IMG/VR virus record: IMGVR_UViG_3300049919_000150
Span: 1 to 45,171 of that record
DNA length: 45,171 nucleotides
Strand: one strand, 5' to 3'
From: a virus
Below, piece after piece: positions 2 through 43,238 of the stretch. Below the pieces are notes generated by a model. It did not search any database, had not been told where the DNA came from, and worked only from the letters and a program-made list of their open reading frames with translations. The position numbers were made by a program, and so were the translations under genes. Position 1 is the stretch's first letter. Every line of letters begins with the position of its first letter.

Positions 2-217
2 CAGACAGGTCGGGTTGTTCACATTGAGTTTTGGGATAAATTAAAAGCAACAGAGTTATTGGGTAAATTTGAAGGTGTGTTTAAAGACACTGTGAAGCAT
101 GAGCATGGAATAGATGGAAATTTAGCTGCGGTATTATTAGCGAACGCGGAGGCTCGTGCGATTGAAGCCAGTCGTCCGGTTGTGCCGCAGGTGTTGATTG
201 GAAGGGAAGTTATATGA
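2..217 (+). CDS. Terminase small subunit, C-terminal part (cut by window edge)
   Basis: An open frame enters from the left edge and ends with TGA at 215-217; 71 residues are visible. The stretch FWDKLKATELLGKFEGVF (about residues 10-27 of the visible part) matches the conserved C-terminal signature of Terminase_2-type small subunits, where a W/H-D-K-L-x-A-L-E-L-L-G-K motif follows the DNA-binding part. The family recognises the phage packaging site and loads the large terminase. The location just before sigma, phosphoesterase and TerL genes supports this. The N-terminal helix-turn-helix would lie outside the window. Its stop overlaps the next ATG (ATGA), so translation is probably coupled. 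Confidence 0.8.
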   Translation, partial: QTGRVVHIEFWDKLKATELLGKFEGVFKDTVKHEHGIDGNLAAVLLANAEARAIEASRPVVPQVLIGREVI

Positions 218-381
218 TTGTTTTACGGTGTAGGTTTGATGATGCGTTTTTCATGAGTGTTGTCGATGTTGTGAAGGCTAAGGGGTTTCGTGCAGCGGAG
301 AAGTCGTTGCTCGATGCTGGGTATAAAGATTCGGTTGTGAAAGCACTGCTCCGGCGTGTGATGAAGCGTAACGCATGGTAA
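214..381 (+). CDS. Small hypothetical protein (55 aa) in packaging operon
   Basis: The frame runs from ATG 214, inside an ATGA overlap with the small terminase, to TAA 379-381, which itself overlaps the ATG of the sigma-like gene at 375. The protein is short, basic and probably helical, with a C-terminal half rich in Lys/Arg and Leu (VKALLRRVMKR). I do not recognise a family. Overlaps at both ends and the same G-rich composition as the flanking genes support real coding. A DNA-binding or terminase accessory role would be a guess from position only. Confidence 0.6.
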   Translation: MIVLRCRFDDAFFMSVVDVVKAKGFRAAEKSLLDAGYKDSVVKALLRRVMKRNAW

Positions 382-824
382 ATGAAATAATGAAGTACCG
401 TGATCAGATGATCAGATCGCTCCGGCGGTATGGTCGGGATCAGTCGTGGTGTGAGGATATGTTTAACGATGCGATCGTGAAAGCGATGGAGTATAAGTTA
501 CCTGTGATGTCCGTTAAGACTTGGTTTCGGCGGGTGATGCACAACGGAGCGATTAATAATTTACGGCGTGATCGGTATGAAGAACTGTTGCCGAATATGT
601 CAGTCGTAGATCCGAGGTTATCGTTTGATTTGGAAGGATTTGAAACGATACTGACACAGCATCTGAAGGGTCAGCAGTTACGAGTCGTGTGGATGGTAAT
701 GATTGAATGTATGACGATGGTCGAAATATCACAGCAGACCGGATGGAATTACGATACAGTGAAAGCGAATTATCGGCATGGGTGGTTGAAGGTCCGTGGA
801 ATATTAAGGGAGTGGTATGTATGA
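375..824 (+). CDS. Sigma-70-family (ECF-like) RNA polymerase sigma factor
   Basis: The 149-residue protein has the two-block layout of a minimal group 4 (ECF) sigma factor. Residues about 20-66 look like region 2, with an acidic CEDMFNDAIVKAM helix, then VKTWFRRVMHNGAINNLRR, the W-x-x-x-x-x-N-x-x-I/N-x-L-R-R core-binding and -10 recognition pattern. Residues about 98-147 look like region 4: a predicted helix-turn-helix around EISQQTGWNYDTVKANYRHG followed by a basic LKVRGILREW helix. ECF proteins direct host RNA polymerase to specific promoters, so this one could switch on late genes. It starts inside the preceding gene and its stop overlaps the phosphoesterase ATG. An alternative is a sigma-like DNA-binding protein that acts in packaging or as a transcription regulator without true sigma activity. 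Confidence 0.7.
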   Translation: MVNEIMKYRDQMIRSLRRYGRDQSWCEDMFNDAIVKAMEYKLPVMSVKTWFRRVMHNGAINNLRRDRYEELLPNMSVVDPRLSFDLEGFETILTQHLKGQQLRVVWMVMIECMTMVEISQQTGWNYDTVKANYRHGWLKVRGILREWYV

Positions 825-1351
825 TTATATATAATGATTTGCATTGGTTTAACAAGGTCGGAATGAATGATGTCAGTGTTGATGATGCTGATTTATTATT
901 GGGCGACATTATTGATATGGCAAATGTGAGTAAAGATCAGAAAGAGCAAGCGCGTGAATTATATTTCAGATTACGAGCGAAGCATCTGAGTAAGTATGTC
1001 GAGGGAAATCATGAACGTGTCGGAGTTATTGTTCGTTGGTATGAAGAAGACGGATATATATTTGCCCACGGTGATTTAGAATCTGATCCTGACCGATGGG
1101 TTAAGTATCGTGATAAACCGTGGGGTGCTGGATGGTTTAAGCGGAATATATTATCACGATTGATCAGTGAGTTTGAAAGTATTATTGATCGTAAACCGAA
1201 GTTGCAGTTTTTAGATAATGCCGCAGCGTTAGCGAAGTTACAGAAGTGTCATACCTACGTTTGCGGTCACTTTCATCCCAAGGAAAGAATCACGATGATG
1301 CACGATGGGATTCGGATTATAATTTTACCGAGGGGTAGAAATGTCATATAG
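821..1351 (+). CDS. Calcineurin-like metallophosphoesterase
   Basis: The 176-residue protein has the metallophosphoesterase motifs in order: NDLHWF (D-x-H, residues about 5-7), LLLGDIID (GD), VEGNHERVG (GNHE), a YIFAHGD block and YVCGHFHPK (GHxH-like). Together these bind a dinuclear metal centre that hydrolyses phosphomonoesters or diesters. Phage relatives such as the lambda phosphatase have similar size. I chose ATG 821, which overlaps the sigma-like stop (ATGA), rather than an upstream ATG at 707 that would lie deep inside that gene. The substrate is unknown. Its place between sigma and large terminase suggests co-expression with packaging, possibly for DNA-end or nucleotide processing. 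Confidence 0.85.
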   Translation: MIIYNDLHWFNKVGMNDVSVDDADLLLGDIIDMANVSKDQKEQARELYFRLRAKHLSKYVEGNHERVGVIVRWYEEDGYIFAHGDLESDPDRWVKYRDKPWGAGWFKRNILSRLISEFESIIDRKPKLQFLDNAAALAKLQKCHTYVCGHFHPKERITMMHDGIRIIILPRGRNVI

Positions 1352-2876
1352 CGATGATGAAATTCGAGCGTTCGGTCAGCTATTAGATAAATACCGATTC
1401 GATTTAACGAAGTTGGTTTATATTATTTTTCCGTTTGGTGAAGTCGGTCACGACATGGAAGCGATGAAGCCGTACTCATGGCAGATGATTGAGTGGAAGC
1501 GCATGAGTGTTCACCTGATGAATCCACTGACACGATATCTGCCGTATAAGTTATGTGTATCGTCTGGTAACGGAGCAGCGAAGACTGCGTTCGGTGCAAT
1601 GACGTATTTGATGTTGATGTACACGCAGCAGGTGCGGGGTCGTATTACAGCGAATACTGAACCGCAGATGAAGTCTGTTGTTTGGCCGGAGTATGATATC
1701 TGGTGTGGACGTGCACGGTATTTCGATTTTTTCTTTGAGAAGTTTGGGACGAGTATTAAGTCGCGTGATGTGAAGCACTCAGAGACATGGCGGTTGGATG
1801 CGGTGACGTGGAGTGAAACGGCTCCGGCTGCGATGTCAGGATTACATAATAAAGGGAAAGCGATCCTGTTGATATTTGAAGAAGCTGCGGGTATTCCGTC
1901 AGTGATCTGGAAGTATGCCAATGGTGCGATGACTGACGTTGATACGATTAAGATATGGCTGGCGTTTGCGAACTCGGATGATCCTGAATCACAGTTTGAA
2001 CAGAACATGAATAATACGGACTGGCGCAGTCTGCGAATTGATACACGTTCACTGGAACACGTCTCGAAGGAATTTGTCGCAGAACTGTTGAAAGAATGTA
2101 ATGGAAATGAAGATGCAGATGATTTTAGGGTGCGTGTGCGTGGGATGCCGCGAAAGTCCAGTGCTGACAGTATTATAAGTTTTGCACGAGTGCGCGATGC
2201 CTTGGACCGGACGATTGATCGCGATTCACTGCGTGAATTACCAGTGATTCTGACATGCGATCCGGCATGGACGGGTGGTGATGAGACGTGTATTTGGGTG
2301 CATCAGGGACCGTGGTCGAAGCTGTTAGAGAAATATAAATTAAATAAAGCGATGGGTGAAACGCACATCCTGACATACTCGCTGATGTGCAGGTACGAAA
2401 AAGATTATAAAGTGGATGCAGTATTTATAGATCAGGCGGAGGGTACAGCGATTTACACGATGGCTCACGCGCAGGGTAAATATAATTGGGAGCTGGTGAG
2501 TTTTTCTTCGAGTCCTAATGATGCGCCGGATTTCGCACAGTCGCAGTATCAGAATATCAGAGCACAGATGTATTACGAGGCCGAGAAACACTTGGCACAT
2601 GGTGCGATTATCGAAGTTGATTTACCTGAATGGCGGGACCACGTTGAGAAACAGTTGTGCTGGACCAAGGGAATCAGAAATCGGACGACACTGAAGAAAC
2701 AGGCCGAGGCCAAGGAAGAATTAAAGAAGCGTGTTGGGCAGTCGCCGGACGTTGCCGATGGATTTGTTCTGCGGTTTGCTAGACCAGTGCTTGATCGTTT
2801 GCCGGAGAATACGACCGAAGCGATGCGTGAAGTGTTTGAAAGTGGCGATAATGAAGAATATAGTCCGTATTCTTAG
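1341..2876 (+). CDS. Terminase large subunit (ATPase/nuclease)
   Basis: The 511-residue protein carries an N-terminal packaging ATPase with a Walker A-like SGNGAAKT at residues 75-82 and a Walker B AILLIFEEA at 174-182. The C-terminal RNase H-like nuclease has acidic residues at D307 (LTCDPAW), D364 (VFIDQ) and the SPDVADGF block around 470-474. The enzyme pumps DNA into the procapsid through the portal and cuts concatemers. Its ATG lies inside the end of the phosphoesterase gene, preceded by a GAGGGG ribosome-binding site. Length fits podovirus and siphovirus large terminases. Base composition is clearly more GC-rich and G-rich than that of the genes that follow. Confidence 0.93.
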   Translation: MSYSDDEIRAFGQLLDKYRFDLTKLVYIIFPFGEVGHDMEAMKPYSWQMIEWKRMSVHLMNPLTRYLPYKLCVSSGNGAAKTAFGAMTYLMLMYTQQVRGRITANTEPQMKSVVWPEYDIWCGRARYFDFFFEKFGTSIKSRDVKHSETWRLDAVTWSETAPAAMSGLHNKGKAILLIFEEAAGIPSVIWKYANGAMTDVDTIKIWLAFANSDDPESQFEQNMNNTDWRSLRIDTRSLEHVSKEFVAELLKECNGNEDADDFRVRVRGMPRKSSADSIISFARVRDALDRTIDRDSLRELPVILTCDPAWTGGDETCIWVHQGPWSKLLEKYKLNKAMGETHILTYSLMCRYEKDYKVDAVFIDQAEGTAIYTMAHAQGKYNWELVSFSSSPNDAPDFAQSQYQNIRAQMYYEAEKHLAHGAIIEVDLPEWRDHVEKQLCWTKGIRNRTTLKKQAEAKEELKKRVGQSPDVADGFVLRFARPVLDRLPENTTEAMREVFESGDNEEYSPYS

Positions 2877-2926
2877 TTGACAACAGAGTTACATGGTGCA
2901 GAAATGTATTATGAGGTGGGAAAACT

Positions 2927-3259
2927 ATGGCATGGTTTGAAGAAACTTTTGGTGGAGACTTGGCTCGTTCAGTCGATCGTGGATTTTTCAGCGAAGGTAT
3001 TGAAGGGTTTTTAGATCCGCTGGGTTTGGTTAAAGCTGGAAATGATTACATGAATCCTGATAATTCTAAAGAAATTGCAGCACAACAGGCGGCACTTCAG
3101 AATCAGTTATTGACAGCAGCGAACCAAGTGAACTTAAAAGACATGCAATCCTCACAGGCGGCTTCACAGGCGTACACACAGAAGGCTCCGACTAATTCTC
3201 CGAATTTTTTAATGAACGCCAATAGCCGATCACAATCGAACGATTTTCTGGGGTTATAA
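2927..3259 (+). CDS. Hypothetical virion-associated protein (110 aa)
   Basis: This frame sits between large terminase and portal, starts after a GAGGTGG ribosome-binding site and ends in a TAATG overlap with the portal start. The N-terminal 45 residues contain Phe/Gly-rich segments, and the remainder is rich in Ala, Gln, Asn and Ser with likely helical or coiled-coil character (EIAAQQAALQNQLLTAANQV). No family is recognised. Podoviruses often encode a small head protein here. The 50-base gap before it has no coding and contains a TTGACA box directly after the TerL stop. Confidence 0.7.
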   Translation: MAWFEETFGGDLARSVDRGFFSEGIEGFLDPLGLVKAGNDYMNPDNSKEIAAQQAALQNQLLTAANQVNLKDMQSSQAASQAYTQKAPTNSPNFLMNANSRSQSNDFLGL

Positions 3260-19725: not shown

Positions 19726-21039
19726 ATGATCAATAATTACACCGACTTTGTAAGTTATTTAGGGAATGGAACGCAATCAATTTACACGTTTCCATTTCGG
19801 ATTACAAAGACCGAACAGATCCTCGTTATGGTTTTCGACACGCTTTTAAACACACTGATTTTTTCTGAAAAGGGAAATGTTGGTGTAAATATATCGGCTG
19901 TTAATTTTGAACCATTGACAGGGACTGGATCAATTACATTACCTGCGAATCTTCCTATTAATCAAAAGTTAATTATAAAACTTTCGATGGAAGAAGCGAA
20001 ACAGGAATCTCAATTTCGCGAACAATCAGATTATAAATTACGAAATATTGAATCAGCTTTAGATGCAGTAATTTTAAATGTTCAGCGGTTGTTTGAAAAA
20101 TCTAAGCGCAGCTTTGGGTTTGACGATAAAGCCAGCTATACAGTCGGATTGAATACTCAGATTCCATTATTGCCAATACCGAATGGTATTCCGATCATGG
20201 ATAATACAGGCACGAACATGACGATGATTGATTCTGCGACTTTGATTGCAGCTTCAGGTGCTGGAGTTCCTGCAGGTGGTTTGGATGAACAAGTTCTGGG
20301 TAACACAGCAGGTACAGCTGTCTGGAAAGATTATGCGTACAGCGGATTCTCAGCACGTTTCGGATCACTGTTTAATTCGACAAGTCTTAATGACACTTTA
20401 ACTAAAATTTTAAACATTACATACGCACCTCCCACGATTTCATTATCTGGGACTGGTGCTACACTTCGTGAAAAGGGAACAGTCGTTCCATCAGTCACAC
20501 TGACTGCAAATTACAACGATGTTTCAAACCCAATTGTTGCACCATTAACAATGCAGCGAAATGGTTTGGATATTTACACAAACGCTGCAGTAATTGCGAC
20601 AGGTGGATCAGACGCTCTTGTGTACTCAACTCCGTTTTCAGACACCACGTCATTTACTGCCAAGGTAGGTGATGGTACGACTTTGGTTACGAGTAACACT
20701 GTTACATACCCTTTCGTGTATCCATATTACTACGGTGCAGGTGTAGCGGCTTTGACAAATGTTGGTATCGCAGCATTGATTAAACAAATCATCACTCAGA
20801 CCAATACTGCTCCAAGAAATTTTACAGCAGCGAATGGTAACAAATTATATTTCTCATACCCAACAGCTTACCCAGCTTTGACATCAATTTTGGATGTCAG
20901 TAATTTTGAGACAATTACAGACTGGACAGCTCGGACAGTTATTATAACAGGGTTAGATGCGACAGCGCAGAGTTACAGAGTTTATGAATTTAACAATCCG
21001 GTAATCGCAGGAAGCTACGATTATACATTTAAAATTTAA
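19726..21039 (+). CDS. Tail fibre protein with T7 gp17-like N-terminal anchor
   Basis: Residues 1-120 (NGTQSIYTFPFRITKTEQI, then LPANLPINQKLIIKLSMEEAKQ, then SDYKLRNIESALDAVILNVQRL) match the N-terminal anchor that attaches T7-type fibres to the nozzle. A linker and a middle block follow (FSARFGSLFNSTSLNDTLTKIL, then GATLREKGT), then a C-terminal domain from about residue 333 (PYYYGAGVAALT to YEFNNPVIAGSYDYTFKI). Middle and C-terminal modules recur in the genes at 21052 and, more divergently, 22670. The protein should be the primary receptor-binding fibre or the base on which the other fibre proteins assemble. A 37-base gap with a TTGACT box precedes it. Confidence 0.82.
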   Translation: MINNYTDFVSYLGNGTQSIYTFPFRITKTEQILVMVFDTLLNTLIFSEKGNVGVNISAVNFEPLTGTGSITLPANLPINQKLIIKLSMEEAKQESQFREQSDYKLRNIESALDAVILNVQRLFEKSKRSFGFDDKASYTVGLNTQIPLLPIPNGIPIMDNTGTNMTMIDSATLIAASGAGVPAGGLDEQVLGNTAGTAVWKDYAYSGFSARFGSLFNSTSLNDTLTKILNITYAPPTISLSGTGATLREKGTVVPSVTLTANYNDVSNPIVAPLTMQRNGLDIYTNAAVIATGGSDALVYSTPFSDTTSFTAKVGDGTTLVTSNTVTYPFVYPYYYGAGVAALTNVGIAALIKQIITQTNTAPRNFTAANGNKLYFSYPTAYPALTSILDVSNFETITDWTARTVIITGLDATAQSYRVYEFNNPVIAGSYDYTFKI

Positions 21040-21051
21040 CAGGAGGTTTTT

Positions 21052-21999
21052 ATGGGTATTCCATTAGGTTCGAGTTTTACAGTCAACGTAGGTCTTCCAC
21101 TTGATGATCGTTTAGTTGTTTTAGATTTAACAGCGCGTGATGCGATCTTGGCCGGACGACGATATGAAGGTATGCAAGTTTATGTTAAATCTGACACGAA
21201 CACTTACACCCTTAAAGGTGGTTTATTAAACGCATCTTGGGCTGTAGCAAGTGGTGGCGGTGGAGCTTCTTTTACTGGAAGCACAGGATACTCGACACGA
21301 TTTAATGAAGCGATTGATGCTTCGACATTACAATTAGCTGTCGATAATATTTTAAAATTCGGGTATGTACCTCCGGCAATTTCGGCAAGTGGTGCAGGTT
21401 CTGGTACACTTCGCGAGCGCGGTGATACGCAACCAAGTGCTGCACTTTCTGCAACGACAACTAAAACATCACGCGACATTCAACGTGTGGAGTTCTTCCG
21501 TGGAGCCACTTCAATATTTGTAAGTGATCCAGTTGCAGCTCCAACAGGTGGATTAGTCAACTACACAGACAATACTCCATTCAGCAACAATGTTACATAC
21601 ACGGCACAGGTCACAGATATTGTCGGAGTTCCAGCGGCAACGACTGTGACAAGTAACTCTGTGAATTATAACTTTGTTTATCCATATTACTTTGGCGCAG
21701 GTGCGGTTGGTTTAACTCCAGCGGCAGTGAGCGCATTGACGAAACAGATTATTAATTCAACTACAAATGCGAACAGATCATTTACTGCGACAAGCGGTCA
21801 GGTTTATTACTTCGCATATCCAGCAGCGTACCCAGCATTGACTTCAATCTTGGATGCGAATGGTTTTGAAGTTATAACTGATTGGACTGCTACGACAGGA
21901 AACATTGTTGGTCTTGATACGACTTCACAGTCGTACAGAATTTATGAGTTCAACAATCCTGTAGTGGCCGGAACAACATCGTTCACATTTAAGCAATAG
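21052..21999 (+). CDS. Modular tail appendage protein A
   Basis: The 315-residue protein starts after a perfect AGGAGG (21041-21046). Its N-terminal module of about 70 residues (GIPLGSSFTVN, LDDRLVVLDLTARDAILAG, RRYEGMQVYV, YTLKGG) recurs at 22010 and 23621. A Gly-rich hinge leads to a middle block with TLRERGD and a C-terminal domain (PYYFGAGAVGLT to YEFNNPVVAGTTSFTFKQ) that is a clear paralogue of the fibre at 19726. It is probably a secondary fibre or fibre tip subunit. Enzymatic residues are not visible. Confidence 0.7.
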   Translation: MGIPLGSSFTVNVGLPLDDRLVVLDLTARDAILAGRRYEGMQVYVKSDTNTYTLKGGLLNASWAVASGGGGASFTGSTGYSTRFNEAIDASTLQLAVDNILKFGYVPPAISASGAGSGTLRERGDTQPSAALSATTTKTSRDIQRVEFFRGATSIFVSDPVAAPTGGLVNYTDNTPFSNNVTYTAQVTDIVGVPAATTVTSNSVNYNFVYPYYFGAGAVGLTPAAVSALTKQIINSTTNANRSFTATSGQVYYFAYPAAYPALTSILDANGFEVITDWTATTGNIVGLDTTSQSYRIYEFNNPVVAGTTSFTFKQ

Positions 22000-22009
22000 G
22001 AAGTAGACA

Positions 22010-22660
22010 ATGGGAATACCTTTAAGTTCGAGTTTCACAGTTAATGCAGCATTACCACTCGATGATCGGGTTGTAACTGCTACGCTTTTCACTCGTGATG
22101 CGATCTTAGCGGGTCGAAGATTCCAAGGTATGCAGGTTCACTGTTTGGCTGATTCTAAAAATTATCAGCTTCAGGGTGGTATTGCGAACGTGAACTGGAC
22201 TGAAGTCGGGACAGGTTCCGGCGGTGGTTCAGGGATTCAGATTACGATAAATTCTTTTGTTGGTGATGCGATACAGACAGTATTTACTCTCACGATTGCG
22301 CCATTGTCGAACTGGGTTGATGTATTTATATCTGGAGTTTATCAGCATAAATCGACATATTCGATTGCTGGTACGACTTTGACATTTACAACACCTCCAC
22401 CGGATTTAACAGACATTGAAGTGAATATGAAGGTCCCAACAATTTACACAGCGTTGGTTTTACATACTTATGTTGGTGATGGACTTCAGACAGTGTTTAC
22501 ATTATTGGTTGCACCAACAAACGCGAATTTTACAAGTGTTTATATTTCAGGTGCATACCAGAATAAAAATTCATACACTGTTTCAGGGACCACTTTGACT
22601 TTCTCAGTGGCTCCACCAAGTACGTTAGATATTGAAGTAATGGTTATTAAAAATTTATAG
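22010..22660 (+). CDS. Modular tail appendage protein B with two internal repeats
   Basis: The 216-residue protein has the same N-terminal module as its neighbour (GIPLSSSFTVNAALPLDDR, TRDAILAGRRFQGMQV). The middle and C-terminal domains are replaced by two tandem copies of a roughly 70-residue beta repeat. The repeats share VGDAIQTVFTLTIAP / VGDGLQTVFTLLVAP, then ISGVYQHKSTYSIAGTTLTF / ISGAYQNKNSYTVSGTTLTF and a closing IEV. This repeat is common in phage fibres as a structural spacer. The gene is probably a fibre shaft or adaptor. Confidence 0.65.
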   Translation: MGIPLSSSFTVNAALPLDDRVVTATLFTRDAILAGRRFQGMQVHCLADSKNYQLQGGIANVNWTEVGTGSGGGSGIQITINSFVGDAIQTVFTLTIAPLSNWVDVFISGVYQHKSTYSIAGTTLTFTTPPPDLTDIEVNMKVPTIYTALVLHTYVGDGLQTVFTLLVAPTNANFTSVYISGAYQNKNSYTVSGTTLTFSVAPPSTLDIEVMVIKNL

Positions 22661-22669
22661 GGGTGATAT

Positions 22670-23611
22670 ATGGCTTTAACAAAAATTCCTGATGTAATGT
22701 TGGTTAGCGGTGGAGGCGGAGGCGGCGGTGGAGTCACCTACACTCCTCTAAATAAACAATGGTCTGTCAGATTCCAAGAGAAGATCACAGCGACAACTTT
22801 AGATGATTTTGCTACTGCGATGACGAACCCTTCGTATGAAGAAGACACTATCAGCACTGGAATAAATTGTGTGACTTCTGGACCACAGCTAGTCGTAGTG
22901 ACTTCTACTGGTGAAAGAAACTTAATTTTTGAAAGAACTGCTTCAATTATTGCGACTGGCATGGATTTCAATTTAGAAATGTATCCAAAAATCAAAAGTA
23001 ATTTTTTAACTAATGTAAATTTAAACTCACTGTATATTGGGTCAGCTCCAGCTGTTTTACAAACTGATGTGGGTGTAGCAGCAGGTGATATTGATACAAT
23101 TTATTACCCTTTGTTTAACGTACCTGCAACACCTACAGGAAGTTCGCCAAATCCGAATACTGTGTACATAGATTTCGTGGACAGCTCTGCTAACCCATCA
23201 TATGTCCCAGAGTGGACATTTATTAATTCAAATCCACCATCTGGTGCTGGATCATTTACAAATATGTATTTTAAATATCCAACATTCTTAGGTTGCGCAC
23301 CAGTCGCAACAGCTCCAATTTATACGACATTTGCTCAGAAGAAATTTACATTAGATAGTTATCGTCACACTGATGCTGAACTGTTTGATTTCACTTGCAC
23401 GAATGAGGGTGACAGAGCATTTATTTTGTTAAGCCCTTTCGATGGAGTAATTACTTCAATTAACGATGCAAATGGGTTTAATATATTTAGTGACTGGACT
23501 GTTTCATTTTTAAATATTACTTGTGATGATGGTGAAGTAATTCAATATCGAAAGTATATTTATAATAATCCTTTACCAGTCGGAACTGTTTCATTTACTA
23601 TAAAATCATAG
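22670..23611 (+). CDS. Modular tail appendage protein C
   Basis: The 313-residue protein has a short N-terminus with a run of eight glycines (a flexible hinge). A block follows that resembles the middle module of the 19726 and 21052 proteins (WSVRFQEKITATTLDDFATAM, then GERNLIFERTA). The C-terminus (VITSINDANGFNIFSDWTVS to YIYNNPLPVGTVSFTIKS) is a divergent copy of their C-terminal domain. It lacks the shared N-terminal attachment module. A GGGG site precedes ATG 22670. It is likely another fibre subunit or receptor-binding variant. Confidence 0.65.
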   Translation: MALTKIPDVMLVSGGGGGGGGVTYTPLNKQWSVRFQEKITATTLDDFATAMTNPSYEEDTISTGINCVTSGPQLVVVTSTGERNLIFERTASIIATGMDFNLEMYPKIKSNFLTNVNLNSLYIGSAPAVLQTDVGVAAGDIDTIYYPLFNVPATPTGSSPNPNTVYIDFVDSSANPSYVPEWTFINSNPPSGAGSFTNMYFKYPTFLGCAPVATAPIYTTFAQKKFTLDSYRHTDAELFDFTCTNEGDRAFILLSPFDGVITSINDANGFNIFSDWTVSFLNITCDDGEVIQYRKYIYNNPLPVGTVSFTIKS

Positions 23612-23620
23612 GAGAATATC

Positions 23621-24343
23621 ATGGGTATTAAAACACACTCTGGGTTCGAGATTCTAACACCGACCCCTTTGGATTTAAGAGTTCAGACTGCAACAACGAT
23701 CACTCGTGATGCGATTCCTGCAATCAAACGATATGAAGGTATGCAAGTATATGTTATTGCTGACACTAAGACTTACGTCCTTAAGGGTGGGGTTTTAAAT
23801 GCTAACTGGGTTGAACTTGGAGCTGCGGGTGGCGGTGGTGGAGCATTGTATGATTTCTGCTGCACACAAGGTCCTTTGGACTTAGGTACAACAATACCAA
23901 GTGACAATGTCGGTGCTGTTGTAAACATGTTTCAAGATGTTCAATGGAATATTGGAAGTATTTACAACACGACAACAGGTCGTATAACTTTACCTGTTGA
24001 TGGTATATTAAGTTTAAATTTAGTAAGTTTATTTCCCCCTGCTACATGGGGGTCAGGTGCTATTACTGGATTTGCAATATGGAAAACAAATTTCTTTGGT
24101 GGTGTTGGTGCAACTCTTGAAAAAATTGCAGGAAGAAATATTCGCGATGCAATCATAAATACTCGAATGTACGTTGATGCAACAAATGTGAAAGTAAAAG
24201 GTTTGGCTGGAGATGTATTCATTCCTGCAGTTTTTCAAAACTCAGGCGCATCATTAGTTTTAGGTGGTTCAACACCTTCAGGTACGACAGGTACGACAAA
24301 TAACGCTAACTCGTACATTCAGGGAAGTCTGGTTCCAACTTAA
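23621..24343 (+). CDS. Modular tail appendage protein D
   Basis: Residues 1-75 repeat the N-terminal module (LDLRVQTATTITRDAI, KRYEGMQVYVIADTKTYVLK, GGVLNANWVELG). A Gly hinge follows, then a different C-terminal domain of about 160 residues, with WNIGSIYNTTTGRITLPVDG and a Gly/Ser/Thr-rich end. The latter resembles small C1q/TNF-like or jelly-roll fibre tips by strand pattern only. It begins after a GGAG site. Swapping of tip domains behind one shared module is the likely reason for the family. Confidence 0.65.
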   Translation: MGIKTHSGFEILTPTPLDLRVQTATTITRDAIPAIKRYEGMQVYVIADTKTYVLKGGVLNANWVELGAAGGGGGALYDFCCTQGPLDLGTTIPSDNVGAVVNMFQDVQWNIGSIYNTTTGRITLPVDGILSLNLVSLFPPATWGSGAITGFAIWKTNFFGGVGATLEKIAGRNIRDAIINTRMYVDATNVKVKGLAGDVFIPAVFQNSGASLVLGGSTPSGTTGTTNNANSYIQGSLVPT

Positions 24344-28613: not shown

Positions 28614-28806
28614 TTAAAAGCCTCTCAGTATTGTGTAAATTTCTAATATGACGAATCACCTTAACACCTTCATTTCGCATAATCAAGTCGGCAGGTGAAG
28701 CCTTTAAACAGGATGTGACAGTATTCATCCACTGGTACGTTCGGAGCGCAGAGTACCCTTTTTTATTCAGGTACTCTAATATTTCATTATGAATCACTGA
28801 GTTCAT
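28402..28806 (-). CDS. Hypothetical protein (134 aa) overprinted by winged-helix gene
   Basis: The ATG overlaps the DNA polymerase stop (ATGA), so translation is probably coupled. Residues 1-66 look like a real folded domain (IHNEILEYLNKKGYSALRTY, LKASPADLIMRNEGVKVIRH), perhaps a second winged helix. Residues 67-134 lie over the winged-helix gene in another frame and are of low protein-like quality (Asn, Pro, Asp-rich). Either two genes truly share DNA, or an old or sequencing indel has split a longer protein. Confidence 0.5.
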   Translation of the reverse strand: MNSVIHNEILEYLNKKGYSALRTYQWMNTVTSCLKASPADLIMRNEGVKVIRHIRNLHNTERLLNGQTIKYKRKHNFRIFKDEQVSNTETDCRPSLLGLENPSEPIDGSRVCDQTNDCKIPNLQAGFKTVDRRD

Positions 28807-30737
28807 ATTAAAAGCTTTTCAACTTCTGAAATGTAATAATTATAGTCAAGTGAGTCCCAATGAAAATCTTTCACATGATTACACTGCCTGACCAGTTTAC
28901 CAGATTCAATTCCAGTTTTAATTTGAAACTCATATTTCTTTTTATTTTTACTGTGGATTCTTTCATCCCAAGTTTGCGGTGGGAGTGATTTTAAAATTGA
29001 ATTATACATTTCATCACTGAGTCCATTCTTCCGTTTAAATTCTCCAGCAGCACCCTTGGGTTTCGCAATCTTAAACATCGGTTGACCTGACGTTGAGACA
29101 TAATACCTGACAGTTTTAGAACAGACTTGATCACCAATATAAAGCTGCGCACCCTTCGGAGTTTTATATCGAAGCATAAAATCGAAAGGATCTGTGATAA
29201 GTCTTACAGCAAACTCAGGGTTAATATCATTGAGTAACACAAAGCGAACTGCTTTCTGTACAACCATAGATGAGAAATCTTTATTCCAAACACCATCGTA
29301 ATCCTTGTCAGTTTCAGGGAACCAGTACGCACCTTTCGCTTTTACTTTTTGAGTGCGTGTCACAGCGATATAATTATTCACATCACGAATCAGCATCTTA
29401 GAGTAAAATGCTTCTTCAAGTTCAAGACCTGTCATCAACTGCCAGCTCTCTTTGTAAATATTAATCCATTCAATCGCTGACTTATGAGCATAAACAGTCA
29501 CACCATCCGTGTTGACCTGAATCGGCTTCACGTTTGGAATTGAAAATAATAATTCACATAACTGAAGGATTTGAAGCTGACCATTGATTGTAATCTTCAA
29601 CATATATGAAGGATCATAAAGTGGTGAATATGGATTGTTACTATTTCCATACGCACCATTTAGTGCGAGTTTGTACATGGCATTTAAAGCTGTACCCTTT
29701 GCGTGTTCAAATCTTTTCTTTTTAAGTGATTCGTATTTTTCAACAAATGATTCCCCAAGGTGCATTGGGTAAAACTTATTTACAATACCGAGACTTGGAT
29801 AAAGTGAGGCAACATCCAGATCAATAATTTGCCAGTCATCGCTGGATTCAAACTTCTGGTTTTCGACTGACCCATGAATACCGCCGATACCAAAGTCAAA
29901 AGTAAAGCCTTTGATTTCTTTAGTCAGTTTTATATTGTCGTCACCATACGAAGTCCACGTCTGCTGCTCGAACCACTCACGGACTGATTGATATTCCTGA
30001 TCATGAAACTGAATTTTCGGTAAAATAATTCGACCAAGATTCACACATGTAATGATTGTTTGATTCGGAGTTCTGTTATCAGACTTGTAACACTTATCAC
30101 GACCAATCTCTTTAATCAGAAACTCAGTACCAATCTTTACGTCAGAGAAATTTAAAACATCCCCACGGATCATTTTGGCATCAACAATATCTTTACGCAT
30201 TTTAATTAAGTGTGTGCATTTATCTAAAAACTTTTTAGTTTCAGCAACGTCATGAATATTATATTGAATCAGAATATCTTTTTCACGATCTGTCAGATCA
30301 CGAACTTCAAATGGAAGATCCTCAACACTTTCAGATCGCATTGCACATTGCAGTGCTTTCAAAGAAGTCGCACGATTTTTATTATCGAAGTGATTTATTT
30401 TTAATAAGTCGATTTGTTTTAATTTGCGATCACTTTCCCAGATAGGCTGAAGTGCGTCGCGATTTGTAAAGATTAAGTTAGTGAGGTCAGTAACAGATTG
30501 ATTAGTAAATGTCTCAGAATTAAGTAACAAGGTATGAAGAAAGTGATAGTCAAAACCAATGTTATTGTAACCCACAAAATAATGTTTTTCATAATACTCC
30601 AAAAATTTAATAAGTTCATGCTTCTGATTTTTACGATCAGACATTTCATAAATAAACCATTGATCTAATTCGCAATCATACCCGCAGAATGTGAAGATAT
30701 TTGGGTAAGTTTCTAAATCATACACCATAAATTTCAT
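28803..30737 (-). CDS. Family B DNA polymerase with 3'-5' exonuclease
   Basis: The 644-residue protein has exonuclease motifs DLE (D7, E9), VGYNNIGFDYHF (55-66) and YNIHD (159-163). Polymerase motif A is DLDVASLYPS (catalytic D308), motif B KLALNGAYG (356-364) and motif C VNTDG (408-412, catalytic D411). A KAKGAYWF block follows. It is shorter than T4-type enzymes, and protein-priming TPR insertions are not evident. It replicates phage DNA, probably with the PrimPol-ATPase and SSB encoded upstream. Motif C has Asn in place of the usual first Asp of DTD, while the essential second Asp is kept. An AGGAC site precedes the ATG. Confidence 0.88.
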   Translation of the reverse strand: MKFMVYDLETYPNIFTFCGYDCELDQWFIYEMSDRKNQKHELIKFLEYYEKHYFVGYNNIGFDYHFLHTLLLNSETFTNQSVTDLTNLIFTNRDALQPIWESDRKLKQIDLLKINHFDNKNRATSLKALQCAMRSESVEDLPFEVRDLTDREKDILIQYNIHDVAETKKFLDKCTHLIKMRKDIVDAKMIRGDVLNFSDVKIGTEFLIKEIGRDKCYKSDNRTPNQTIITCVNLGRIILPKIQFHDQEYQSVREWFEQQTWTSYGDDNIKLTKEIKGFTFDFGIGGIHGSVENQKFESSDDWQIIDLDVASLYPSLGIVNKFYPMHLGESFVEKYESLKKKRFEHAKGTALNAMYKLALNGAYGNSNNPYSPLYDPSYMLKITINGQLQILQLCELLFSIPNVKPIQVNTDGVTVYAHKSAIEWINIYKESWQLMTGLELEEAFYSKMLIRDVNNYIAVTRTQKVKAKGAYWFPETDKDYDGVWNKDFSSMVVQKAVRFVLLNDINPEFAVRLITDPFDFMLRYKTPKGAQLYIGDQVCSKTVRYYVSTSGQPMFKIAKPKGAAGEFKRKNGLSDEMYNSILKSLPPQTWDERIHSKNKKKYEFQIKTGIESGKLVRQCNHVKDFHWDSLDYNYYISEVEKLLI

Positions 30738-31196: not shown

Positions 31197-32024
31197 TTAT
31201 CGTTGACCGAATGGGAATCCACTGACTGCTGTTGGTTGTGGAGCCTGCTGCTGCATCGAAGGTTGTGGTGGAAGACCCACTTGACCCTGTGGTTGATGCT
31301 GTGGAGCCTGTTGCTGCATCGGAGCCTGTTGATACTGCTGATGCTGTGGAGGCAACACATTCCAATTCTGTGGAACTTGCTGCTGCTGAGGCGGAGCCTG
31401 AAAACTCATTTGTGCCGGAGGTATTTGATATCCAGCAGGCATCTGTGGTGCAGAAGTACCAAACATCGAATCAACACTCGGTCTAGAAATAATAGCATTA
31501 CCTACCTGTTGCATACGAACACCCATTGGGTTCAAATATAAACCTGCTTTACCGCGACCAATAGCCGGATGACCTGCTACATTCAAAGTGACTTCAACAT
31601 AATCGCCCGACTTAAAACCCGACTGAACTACCATATTATTCGTACCATCATGGATAGCATAAGCTGGTGCTATTCGCGTTTTGCAAGCAAAAACATTATG
31701 AAGCGCATAACCCTCTCGCGTATTGAAAGGTAAACCTTTACTATCAAAACCATCACCATCTTGAACTTTCCATGCAAAGTCTTTTGGATAATTACCTGAT
31801 GGAAATATTTTTCGAGCTTCTGCTTCACACAATGTTAAAATCTCACCACAATGAGTTTTTGGTATTGCTAAACCAAATCCAAACTCAATTTTTGGAGACC
31901 CATCTTGATTGAATTGTAAAGCACCTGTATTCATGTCTTTTATTTGCTGACCTTTAAAAAGATCCCCAACTGTCCAAACAATGCGACCATACACTACAAT
32001 ACCTGTTTGTTTTTTGTCTTCCAT
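31197..32024 (-). CDS. Single-stranded DNA-binding protein (DUF2815-like) with Gln/Pro-rich tail
   Basis: Residues 1-180 have the features of a phage OB-fold ssDNA-binding protein of the DUF2815 type: TGIVVYGRIVWTVGDLFKG, FGFGLAIPKTHCGE and the signature SGDYVEVTLNVAGHPAIGRG followed by KAGLYLNPMGVRMQQVGNAI. Residues about 182-275 are a disordered tail made mostly of Gln, Pro, Met and Ala with clustered Gln runs. The protein should coat ssDNA at forks. It is first downstream of the Cas4/RecB-like nuclease gene, two bases away, with AGGAG at its start. The tail is unusual and may drive self-association. Confidence 0.8.
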   Translation of the reverse strand: MEDKKQTGIVVYGRIVWTVGDLFKGQQIKDMNTGALQFNQDGSPKIEFGFGLAIPKTHCGEILTLCEAEARKIFPSGNYPKDFAWKVQDGDGFDSKGLPFNTREGYALHNVFACKTRIAPAYAIHDGTNNMVVQSGFKSGDYVEVTLNVAGHPAIGRGKAGLYLNPMGVRMQQVGNAIISRPSVDSMFGTSAPQMPAGYQIPPAQMSFQAPPQQQQVPQNWNVLPPQHQQYQQAPMQQQAPQHQPQGQVGLPPQPSMQQQAPQPTAVSGFPFGQR

Positions 32025-32025
32025 T

Positions 32026-33141
32026 TTATTTATCTCCTGTTTCTGTTAGTTTTTTAGGTGCTTCTTTTCCAAACATTGCATCGGCATATTTAGAAGCATC
32101 CATTTGTTTTAAATTAAATCCTTTTTGTTCTTTGTAACTTAATGAATCAATAACTCCCTGATCAAACTTTTTCTTTTCAGCTTGAGCAGGTGACATCATT
32201 GAAACATCTGATAAATCAAATCCAGCCATTGTTTTAACTGAATCAATTGTCAGACCCGCAATCCATTTGCGATTTGTGAAATTAGGTTCAAGACCAAACC
32301 CTGAAATAATTTTACCTGACTTGATACGAGTCTTCGCAAGTTCAGACAAGGCTTCGTGTTTGATCTTGAACACATCCTTAATACGATCGTACATTTTCAA
32401 CATATATGATAACCCCTCATCATCAATTGAATCCTGCACGTTCACATCAATCACAACATCAATCGCATTAAAATATGCTCTGTTCATCGCTGGACACTCT
32501 TGACCTAATGCCGGACAGTATCTGCAATGTTCTGAAGTCACAAATTTAGTTTGACCAAGTTCATATGCTTTTACAATTTCAGTAAGTTGATTGTAATATG
32601 CGGTCATCTGATCTTGAGTCAAGACAACATCACGAACCATTCCAGCAAAGTGATGTGCTCTTGGTTGAATCACACGAAGAATAATCTTGTCGTATGATTT
32701 CTGATTACGAATCATGATCCCTAAACCGTAACCAATCAACTGCCAGTTATTATCAACTTCAACTGCACGATGCCCATATTTTATATCCATGACAACTAAC
32801 GTGCGACCTTCGTCTTCTTCCCAATTATAATCCACATGACCTTTAATTGTCGTGTTACTTATTGGGTATTCAACTTCAAGTTCTGCAGTCGCATGACTTG
32901 GGATCATTGGTAATATTTTATATGAAAAATAATCCATGTCTTCATCATACATTGTACCATTTTCATGATACGCACCAACTAATGCCGGAGTCGTGCCCAT
33001 GAATCTTGACTCAAGAAAACTATGAAATGCCGTACCAACCATTGCGTATTCACCATCTGGTTGTTCAGGCGTTTCAAGAGCCATTGAACCATTGCAGACT
33101 GTAAACCTTGGAAGACTACTTCCGCGAATTAAAGTTTTCAT
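32026..33141 (-). CDS. PD-(D/E)XK nuclease, Cas4/RecB-like (DUF2800 type)
   Basis: The 371-residue protein has a GTAFHSFLE helix (H40), GHVDYNWEE (D104), VVMDIKYG (D119, K121) and a following NNWQLIGYGLG helix (Q134). This is the RecB/Cas4 nuclease core. Four cysteines, C16 near the N-terminus and C206, C209, C216 (CRYCPALGQEC), fit the iron-sulphur cluster of Cas4/AddB-type nucleases. DUF2800 proteins occur in phage replication modules next to the DUF2815 SSB, as here. It probably resects DNA ends in recombination. Its ATG overlaps the preceding stop. Confidence 0.8.
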   Translation of the reverse strand: MKTLIRGSSLPRFTVCNGSMALETPEQPDGEYAMVGTAFHSFLESRFMGTTPALVGAYHENGTMYDEDMDYFSYKILPMIPSHATAELEVEYPISNTTIKGHVDYNWEEDEGRTLVVMDIKYGHRAVEVDNNWQLIGYGLGIMIRNQKSYDKIILRVIQPRAHHFAGMVRDVVLTQDQMTAYYNQLTEIVKAYELGQTKFVTSEHCRYCPALGQECPAMNRAYFNAIDVVIDVNVQDSIDDEGLSYMLKMYDRIKDVFKIKHEALSELAKTRIKSGKIISGFGLEPNFTNRKWIAGLTIDSVKTMAGFDLSDVSMMSPAQAEKKKFDQGVIDSLSYKEQKGFNLKQMDASKYADAMFGKEAPKKLTETGDK

Positions 33142-33767
33142 TAGTAATTACTCTTTTTTGTGATCTTACCTTCAGCGATTAAATCATTATAAAGTTTCAT
33201 CACTTTCACTTTATCAGATGCAACTGTGAAAATAAAACTAACTTCTAATTCCTTGGCTTTATTTGAAATCCACTCTTGATTCACAACTTTATCAACCAAC
33301 AACTGATTCATTACTTTTGGAAGATTCGCAATAAACTCAGACTCCGAATAAAAATGTGCAGGTTGTTGTATTGGTGGTGCTGCAGGAATTACCGGAGGCA
33401 TAGGAATATTCACTTGTTCTAATACTGGTAAAATTGGTTCAGCTTCAACAGCTTTTAATTTAGGTTTACGTTTTGCTTTTTCTGGAACGACAGTTAATGC
33501 TTCTTCCACAGTTTTCGGAAAAGCTTCATCATCTACGTCACACTCCAAATTATCAATGGCAGAAATTAGAGCTTCATCTAAATCTTTAACTTCCGGTTTC
33601 GATAGTATCGGAAAGTCAACCAAATCTCTAGCTTCCTGTTTTGCATTGATAGCCTGCTCTAAAGTCTCATACTTTAGTGGTGTAGTGCTGGCAAACATTC
33701 CTGTTAATCCTGCAATATGCTCACGCAATTCATCACCATTCATTGCTGTTATTTTTATTTCGATCAT
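33141..33767 (-). CDS. Hypothetical protein (208 aa), Pro-rich linker
   Basis: This is the first gene after the promoter at 33797-33824, starting after AAGGAC. Residues 1-90 are acidic and helical, 90-140 form a Pro/Val/Ile-rich linker, and 140-208 a helical domain (LPKVMNQLLVDKVVNQEWIS, KVMKLYNDLIAEGKITK). No family is recognised. Co-transcription with nuclease and SSB suggests a recombination or replication accessory protein. Confidence 0.55.
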   Translation of the reverse strand: MIEIKITAMNGDELREHIAGLTGMFASTTPLKYETLEQAINAKQEARDLVDFPILSKPEVKDLDEALISAIDNLECDVDDEAFPKTVEEALTVVPEKAKRKPKLKAVEAEPILPVLEQVNIPMPPVIPAAPPIQQPAHFYSESEFIANLPKVMNQLLVDKVVNQEWISNKAKELEVSFIFTVASDKVKVMKLYNDLIAEGKITKKSNY

Positions 33768-33796
33768 GTCCTTTTTCTCCTTTGTTTTGTTGGACT

Positions 33797-33824
33797 ATAA
33801 TATTCACTTAATCGGTTAAATCAA
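33797..33824 (-). promoter_or_regulatory. Sigma70-like promoter for nuclease/SSB block
   Basis: On the minus strand a -35 box TTGATT (33819-33824) and a -10 box TATTAT (33797-33802) are 16 bases apart. They lie in a 70-base non-coding gap, about 30 bases before the ATG at 33767. The -35 is part of the 13-base motif TTGCTTGATTTAA, also found near 43.22 kb. Confidence 0.6.
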
Positions 33825-33837
33825 GCAAAAAGTTTAA

Positions 33838-43188: not shown

Positions 43189-43209
43189 GTGTTACCCCTT
43201 TTTTATATA

Positions 43210-43238
43210 TTTAAATCAAGCAAGCGGTTTAGTGTCAA
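43210..43238 (-). promoter_or_regulatory. Candidate promoter before Lys-rich gene
   Basis: On the minus strand a perfect TTGACA (43233-43238) is 17 bases from TTTAAA (43210-43215), a 4/6 match to TATAAT. The spacer contains the TTGCTTGATTTAA motif that also forms the -35 region at 33.82 kb. The gap (43189-43234) is otherwise non-coding. Confidence 0.5.

Follow-up and report, generated by a model that had tools for sequence, protein, structure and literature searches.

The 45,171-bp linear virus record analyzed here (the window) carries the gene of an ECF-type (group IV) sigma factor in its packaging operon, in the order terS-sigma-terL. The protein is related to the Bd0743 lineage of sigma factors found in Bdellovibrionota chromosomes, and the window contains one strong copy of the promoter motif that accompanies this lineage. 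On balance, we favor the interpretation that the phage uses a host-derived accessory sigma factor, made with the late operon, that would redirect host RNA polymerase to Bd0743-type promoters and would not be the sole late switch. ECF sigma factors of phages are already known; new here are the place of the gene, its source lineage, and the paired promoter. In one database, ~13% of phage genomes carry sigma factors (PMC9429907), and ECF-like late sigma factors have been proven in phiEco32-like phages (PMC8948821).

The initial annotation described the product of 375-824 as an ECF-like sigma factor. Profile searches for Sigma70_r2 and Sigma70_r4 and structure prediction both agree with this description. 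In Pfam, residues 6-67 of the window sigma factor matched Sigma70_r2 (E = 1.3e-7, 31.7 bits, cut-off 24), and residues 95-135 matched Sigma70_r4_2 (PF08281; E = 3e-4) with 20.8 bits, which is under the cut-off of 25.7. The ortholog at locus L003 of a related phage contig passed both Pfam cut-offs. The window protein was also matched by the sigma factor family PHROG_1740 (8.7e-13) and by the NCBIfam sigma70-ECF model TIGR02937 (1.5e-10, 41.0 bits, cut-off 42.9). When a profile of three phage sequences was searched against the PDB, RpoE (7e-9), SigW (7.6e-9), AlgU, and SigH were matched across both domains. Regions 2 and 4 were the only ones matched (no region 1 or 3) in this protein of 149 residues; members of the ECF family have ~150-210. 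The AlphaFold2 model was all-helical, with a mean pLDDT of 77.6 and a pTM of 0.47, and its best PDB matches were all ECF sigma factors in initiation complexes (E 1.6e-4). Region 4 of the model fitted region 4 of SigR with an rmsd of 1.2 Å. The whole-chain TM-scores were low (about 0.4), which is expected if the domains are differently placed. These matches are well beyond chance, and the product of 375-824(+) is an ECF (group IV) sigma factor. Judged from its sequence, it would bind core RNA polymerase and initiate transcription at specific promoters.

The features of the packaging operon and of the operon behind the predicted promoter are collected in Table 1. Only the terminal 71 codons of terS lie within the window, and the part of TerS that they encode is 51-58% identical to the complete TerS of the related contigs G001 and G002. 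From the terS 3' end, the order continues with the 55-aa ORF, the sigma gene, the phosphoesterase-like gene, and terL, and every neighboring pair overlaps by a few bases, as the term "tight operon" in the initial annotation implied. The placement of the sigma gene between the two terminase genes was right as to order, but the gene touches neither of them: the 55-aa ORF intervenes on the terS side and the phosphoesterase-like gene on the terL side. By comparison of the contigs, the phosphoesterase-like gene is variable cargo of the sigma-terL gap, which holds an HNH gene at L003 and nothing at L004.

Table 1. Coordinates of the packaging operon, the sigma factor gene, the predicted promoter, and the operon behind it (positions of the window).
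Feature	Position	Strand	Evidence or remark
terS (small terminase), 3' end	2..217	+	cut by window edge; PHROG_51 8.4e-5; Terminase_2 0.0096
55-aa ORF	214..381	+	no family (Pfam, PHROG); overlaps terS and sigma gene
ECF-type sigma factor gene	375-824	+	ATG start, 149 aa; profile and structure matches
Sigma region 2	390..575	+	PF04542 match, 33 bits, over cut-off
Region 4.2 helix YDTVKANYRH, codons (predicted -35 recognition)	750..779	+	top conservation vs Bd0743 lineage
Calcineurin-like phosphoesterase-type gene, 176 aa	821..1351	+	motifs DLHW, GDIID, GNHE, GHFH; weak PdeM match 2.7e-5
terL (large terminase)	1341..2876	+	PHROG_2 9e-24; 64-66% identity to G001/G002
TTGACA box	2877..2882	+	immediately 3' of terL
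110-aa gene	2927..3259	+	3' of terL; position common to sigma clade
Phage DNA polymerase, p208 operon	28803..30737	-	PHROG_1252 1.7e-152
Gp2.5-like SSB/annealing protein, p208 operon	31197..32024	-	PHROG_7011 2e-36
Exonuclease, p208 operon	32026..33141	-	PHROG_69 1.5e-43
208-aa gene (p208)	33141..33767	-	first in operon behind predicted promoter
Predicted Bd0743-type ECF promoter TTAACCGATTAAGTGAATATTATAGTCCAA (TTAACC-N18-GTC)	33790..33819	-	matrix score 21.8, training median 21.4

A complete TerS (PF03592), a sigma factor of 157-168 aa, and TerL are encoded at both L003 (in G001, 25.7 kb) and L004 (in G002, 47.9 kb). G002 is a practically complete genome, since its two ends fall inside one gene that can be read over the join with few residues missing. 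Sister phages were collected by TerL and capsid profile searches. The sigma gene was missing from 14 sisters with an intact terS-terL junction, where the junction was either empty or occupied by unrelated small genes, and a PF04542 search detected no sigma factor in the sister contigs that were searched whole, the 48-kb G003 included. In the TerL tree, the sigma carriers lie on one side of a 100/100 branch together with L050, a contig that ends before the sigma position. On this sequence comparison, possession of the sigma factor characterizes a single clade. The window and the sigma-less G003 and G007 share most of their late and replication genes. Identity among the phage sigma factors is 27-49%, compared with 64-65% for TerL. 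Among viral contigs, the sigma profile gave two additional partial matches, both distant (L018 and L019), on contigs without Sigma70_r2.

Several other features were observed in these contigs. The sigma tree pairs the window with G002 (100/99) and the TerL tree pairs G001 with G002, which may reflect recombination or unequal evolutionary rates of the sigma gene. The terS-terL junction of the sigma-less L011, L014, L015, L036, L037, and L044 is a site where the small genes vary from phage to phage (zinc-ribbon, protease-like, phosphatase-like, and others). At 19726-24343 of the window, successive fibre-type genes (437, 315, 216, 313, and 240 aa) have related segments, and the same genes occur in G001 and G002, which suggests duplicated receptor-binding modules. 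T-rich direct repeats of the TTTTTCTAAAAC type, with a spacing near 12 nt, are located upstream of terS (L003:125-167 and L004:6685-6751) and are possibly sites of a separate late regulator; at this position, the sister phage at L008 carries a 37-nt tandem repeat of another kind (456-529). Between the divergent early and late operons, L004:6040-6300 contains many copies of AACATTGTTT/AAACAATGTTT that resemble repressor operators. In L004 (6818-6855), L008, L011, and L015, TTGACA stands ~38 nt before the terS start, and no Shine-Dalgarno sequence is visible there, as if the terS mRNA were leaderless. The TTGACA box upstream of terS is retained by most sigma-less sisters, and is thus present with and without the sigma gene. 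A second box, TTGAC(A/T) just after terL, was found in all four sigma-clade contigs and in none of the sigma-less phages. TTGAC boxes as a signature of the phage sigma factor were rejected, as TTGACA precedes terS in most sigma-less phages and the fibre gene in the sigma-less G007.

The relation of the phage sigma factors to bacterial ones was traced with the three-sequence profile, which was run against 84,980 bacterial and archaeal species genomes. It found 80 loci, nearly all of which are labelled Bdellovibrionota. Bd0743 of Bdellovibrio bacteriovorus is a group IV RpoE-like sigma factor that affects chaperone gene expression (PMC3464611). The gene at L105 (B. bacteriovorus kdesi) encodes 206 aa, which is the published length of Bd0743, and the published primer bd0743RTF is present in it with zero mismatches (PMC3464611); the second published bd0743 primer had no match in this gene within three mismatches. 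Each phage sigma factor alone scored far higher with the Bd0743 lineage than with 13 other ECF sigma factors, five of which are Bdellovibrionota paralogs. In the IQ-TREE phylogeny, the phage sigma factors group together (98/95), and this group falls with the Bd0743-type proteins in one clade (100/99), apart from the other ECF sigma factors, including the Bdellovibrionota paralogs; this tree holds 13 other ECF sigma factors only, some of them on long branches. Motifs of the phage sigma factor served to find the Bd0743-lineage genes, which are therefore a biased sample. Region 2 alone was likewise closer to the Bd0743 lineage.

The best-kept stretch is the region 4.2 helix YDTxKANxRH, with the window protein agreeing at 9 of the 12 strongly conserved columns, compared with 18 of 56 before the helix. 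The "VVQE" of region 2.2 in the Bd0743 lineage is replaced by MFND, VVAD, and VISL in the phage sigma factors. Residues at these positions contribute to core binding in other sigma factors, and core binding by the phage protein could therefore be weak or altered. Bd0743 and its Bdellovibrionota orthologs thus share with the phage proteins the architecture of region 2 and region 4 and the helix, whereas the phage proteins are shorter (149-168 aa by ORF calls, vs ~200 or more), have no C-terminal extension, differ in region 2.2, and are encoded in a phage late operon. Taken together, the phage sigma factor appears to belong to the Bd0743 lineage found in Bdellovibrionota chromosomes and looks captured from predatory bacteria of the Bdellovibrio type. 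Judged from the sigma factor alone, the host group of the phage is probably Bdellovibrionota. No relative of the phage capsid gene was found in 369 Bdellovibrionota genomes, and the bacterial genomes scanned for TerL gave no match. One of the 369 genomes contains a partial match to the phage DNA polymerase (L179, G169:C1:3068775-3069617; 35%, E 1e-41), possibly in a prophage or plasmid.

TTAACC-N17/18-GTC was present upstream of 44 of the 80 bacterial lineage genes, where ~0.2 occurrences per spacing, or ~0.4 in total, were expected. Autoregulated ECF promoters usually have this form, and the motif is probably the autoregulated promoter of Bd0743-type genes. The earlier study of Bd0743 found no E. 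coli RpoE-like consensus upstream of chaperone genes (PMC3464611). A weight matrix was built from the bacterial upstream sites and run on six phage contigs. The predicted promoter at 33790-33819(-), a near-perfect copy of the motif, scored above the median of the training sites (Table 1); in 60 first-order model genomes, scores of at least 18 occurred at 0.03 per genome, and scores of at least 20 never occurred. The site is located in a 70-bp gap, 52 nt before the next start codon; no other TTAACC of the window lies between genes at a distance of 25-110 nt from the start codon that follows. No such intergenic TTAACC was found in the sigma-less G003 and G007. In G002, which carries the sigma gene, the predicted promoter is absent at the matching place; a TTAACC half-site with GTC missing lies 61 nt upstream of terS. 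G001, which covers the late half only, has neither. TTAACC-N18-GTC was not seen before late genes in the contigs scanned, the stretch upstream of the window's terS lying outside the window. Read by eye, the sequence TTGATT-N16-TATTAT, which overlaps the site at 33819, makes a plausible sigma70-type promoter. A string like TTGCTTGATTTAA occurs in two early-strand intergenic gaps of the window (43189-43234 and 33768-33837), and a similar one occurs in G002; it is perhaps an early-promoter element.

According to the interpretation that we favor, a sigma gene of the Bd0743 lineage would have moved from a Bdellovibrionota chromosome into the terS-terL junction of an ancestor of the podovirus-like clade. 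Transcription of the late operon from a housekeeping-type (TTGACA) promoter upstream of terS would supply the sigma factor, which would then bind the host core RNA polymerase. The resulting holoenzyme would be sent to promoters with TTAACC at -35 and GTC at -10. Its targets would include at least 33790-33819(-), from which the p208-exonuclease-SSB-DNA polymerase operon would be driven, and possibly the host's own Bd0743 promoters. The sigma factor would in this way act as an accessory regulator that couples late expression with either the replication operon or the host stress programme. A wider version, which we regard as possible though doubtful, is that a phage of predatory bacteria captured both the predator's sigma factor and its promoter code. 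With the sigma gene in the packaging operon and the promoter ahead of the replication operon, mimicry of the host's Bd0743-type promoters would then let late expression act back on genome replication.

The phage protein might instead act mainly on the host, where it would compete with or replace the chromosomal Bd0743-type sigma factor and switch part of the host programme during infection. The region 4.2 helix, as the best-kept part of the protein, would fit such a role, as would the TTAACC-N18-GTC promoter that the host gene has for itself. There are known cases of phage sigma factors redirecting host programmes (PMC9429907), and Bd0743 influences the expression of chaperone genes (PMC3464611). 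We consider a mainly host-directed role unlikely, because copies of the strict motif are few in the six Bdellovibrionota genomes scanned (0-4 each, near the reversed control), a strong copy is located in the window itself, and expression with the late operon would be late for a takeover. Nor do we think it likely that the promoter at 33790-33819 is read by a Bd0743-type sigma factor of the host and not by the phage protein, in which case the two facts would be independent. In favor of this reading, host genes were the source of the motif, many conserved positions of region 2 are not the same in phage and host, and G002 carries a phage sigma factor yet has no site at the matching place. Against it, a sigma carrier has the site and the two sigma-less genomes examined do not, and the -35 helix has been kept.

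In the initial annotation, the sigma factor was proposed as a possible main late-gene switch. On this reading, host polymerase with the phage sigma factor would transcribe the late operon, and the place of the gene would give positive feedback. The sigma gene does occupy the second or third place of the late operon, and phage 7-11 gp47 and phiEco32 gp36 are precedents for ECF-like sigma factors that drive late genes (PMC8948821). The TTGAC box after terL, confined to the sigma clade, and the TTAACC upstream of terS in G002 point in the same direction. No phage RNA polymerase was recognized in the window, as the annotation had also stated, or in its relatives: PF00940 was absent in 12 contigs (a search without positive control), and the named large proteins have other functions, with a 1972-aa virion protein being without a named function. 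Nevertheless, sister phages, the 48-kb G003 included, have the same late operon without a Sigma70_r2 protein, and most of them keep TTGACA upstream of terS, so late operons of this group of phages do not generally require a phage sigma factor. Moreover, the one strong site precedes replication genes, and TTAACC-N18-GTC was not seen before late genes in the stretches available. The main-switch proposal is thus quite improbable, whereas feedback on late transcription is possible. It is very improbable that the gene is cargo with lost sigma activity or encodes a DNA-binding protein that works in packaging, a role also suggested initially. Other phages have different small genes at the junction, the sigma factor diverges fast relative to TerL, and the core-binding positions vary, but an uninterrupted frame persists in three divergent phages and retains both domains and the helix, which a dead gene would not keep, and the protein matched no packaging-related family.

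Among known systems, 7-11 gp47 and phiEco32 gp36 are, like the sigma factor described here, ECF-like sigma factors of podoviruses that use host RNA polymerase, and gp47 is encoded inside the late cluster (PMC8948821). Unlike the window gene, the gp47 gene is on the strand opposite to terL and ~32 kb away from it, and the gp47 promoter consensus, GTAAtg-(16)-aCTA, differs from the predicted TTAACC-N17/18-GTC. The matches of a tblastn search with the window sigma factor did not include phage 7-11. Xpf of PBSX is also a small group IV sigma factor with region 2 and region 4, and controls a phage-like late programme (PMC10141391). It differs in belonging to the Bacillus lineage. The xpf gene is not known to lie in the terS-terL gap. 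The RinA/Ltr proteins of staphylococcal phages are likewise small late regulators encoded beside packaging genes; they are encoded upstream of terS and are described as transcriptional activators, not sigma factors (PMC13123087), whereas the window gene is downstream of terS and has sigma region 2. In a sample of five other annotated phage ECF genes, none had terminase genes annotated within 4 kb.

Because the bacterial source lineage can be traced and a promoter code and a target are predicted in the same genome, the regulation is directly testable. Bd0743-type sigma factors are thereby given a probable autoregulatory promoter. Few phages of Bdellovibrionota have been sequenced, and the sigma factor offers a probable host group for an otherwise unplaced metagenomic podovirus-like family.
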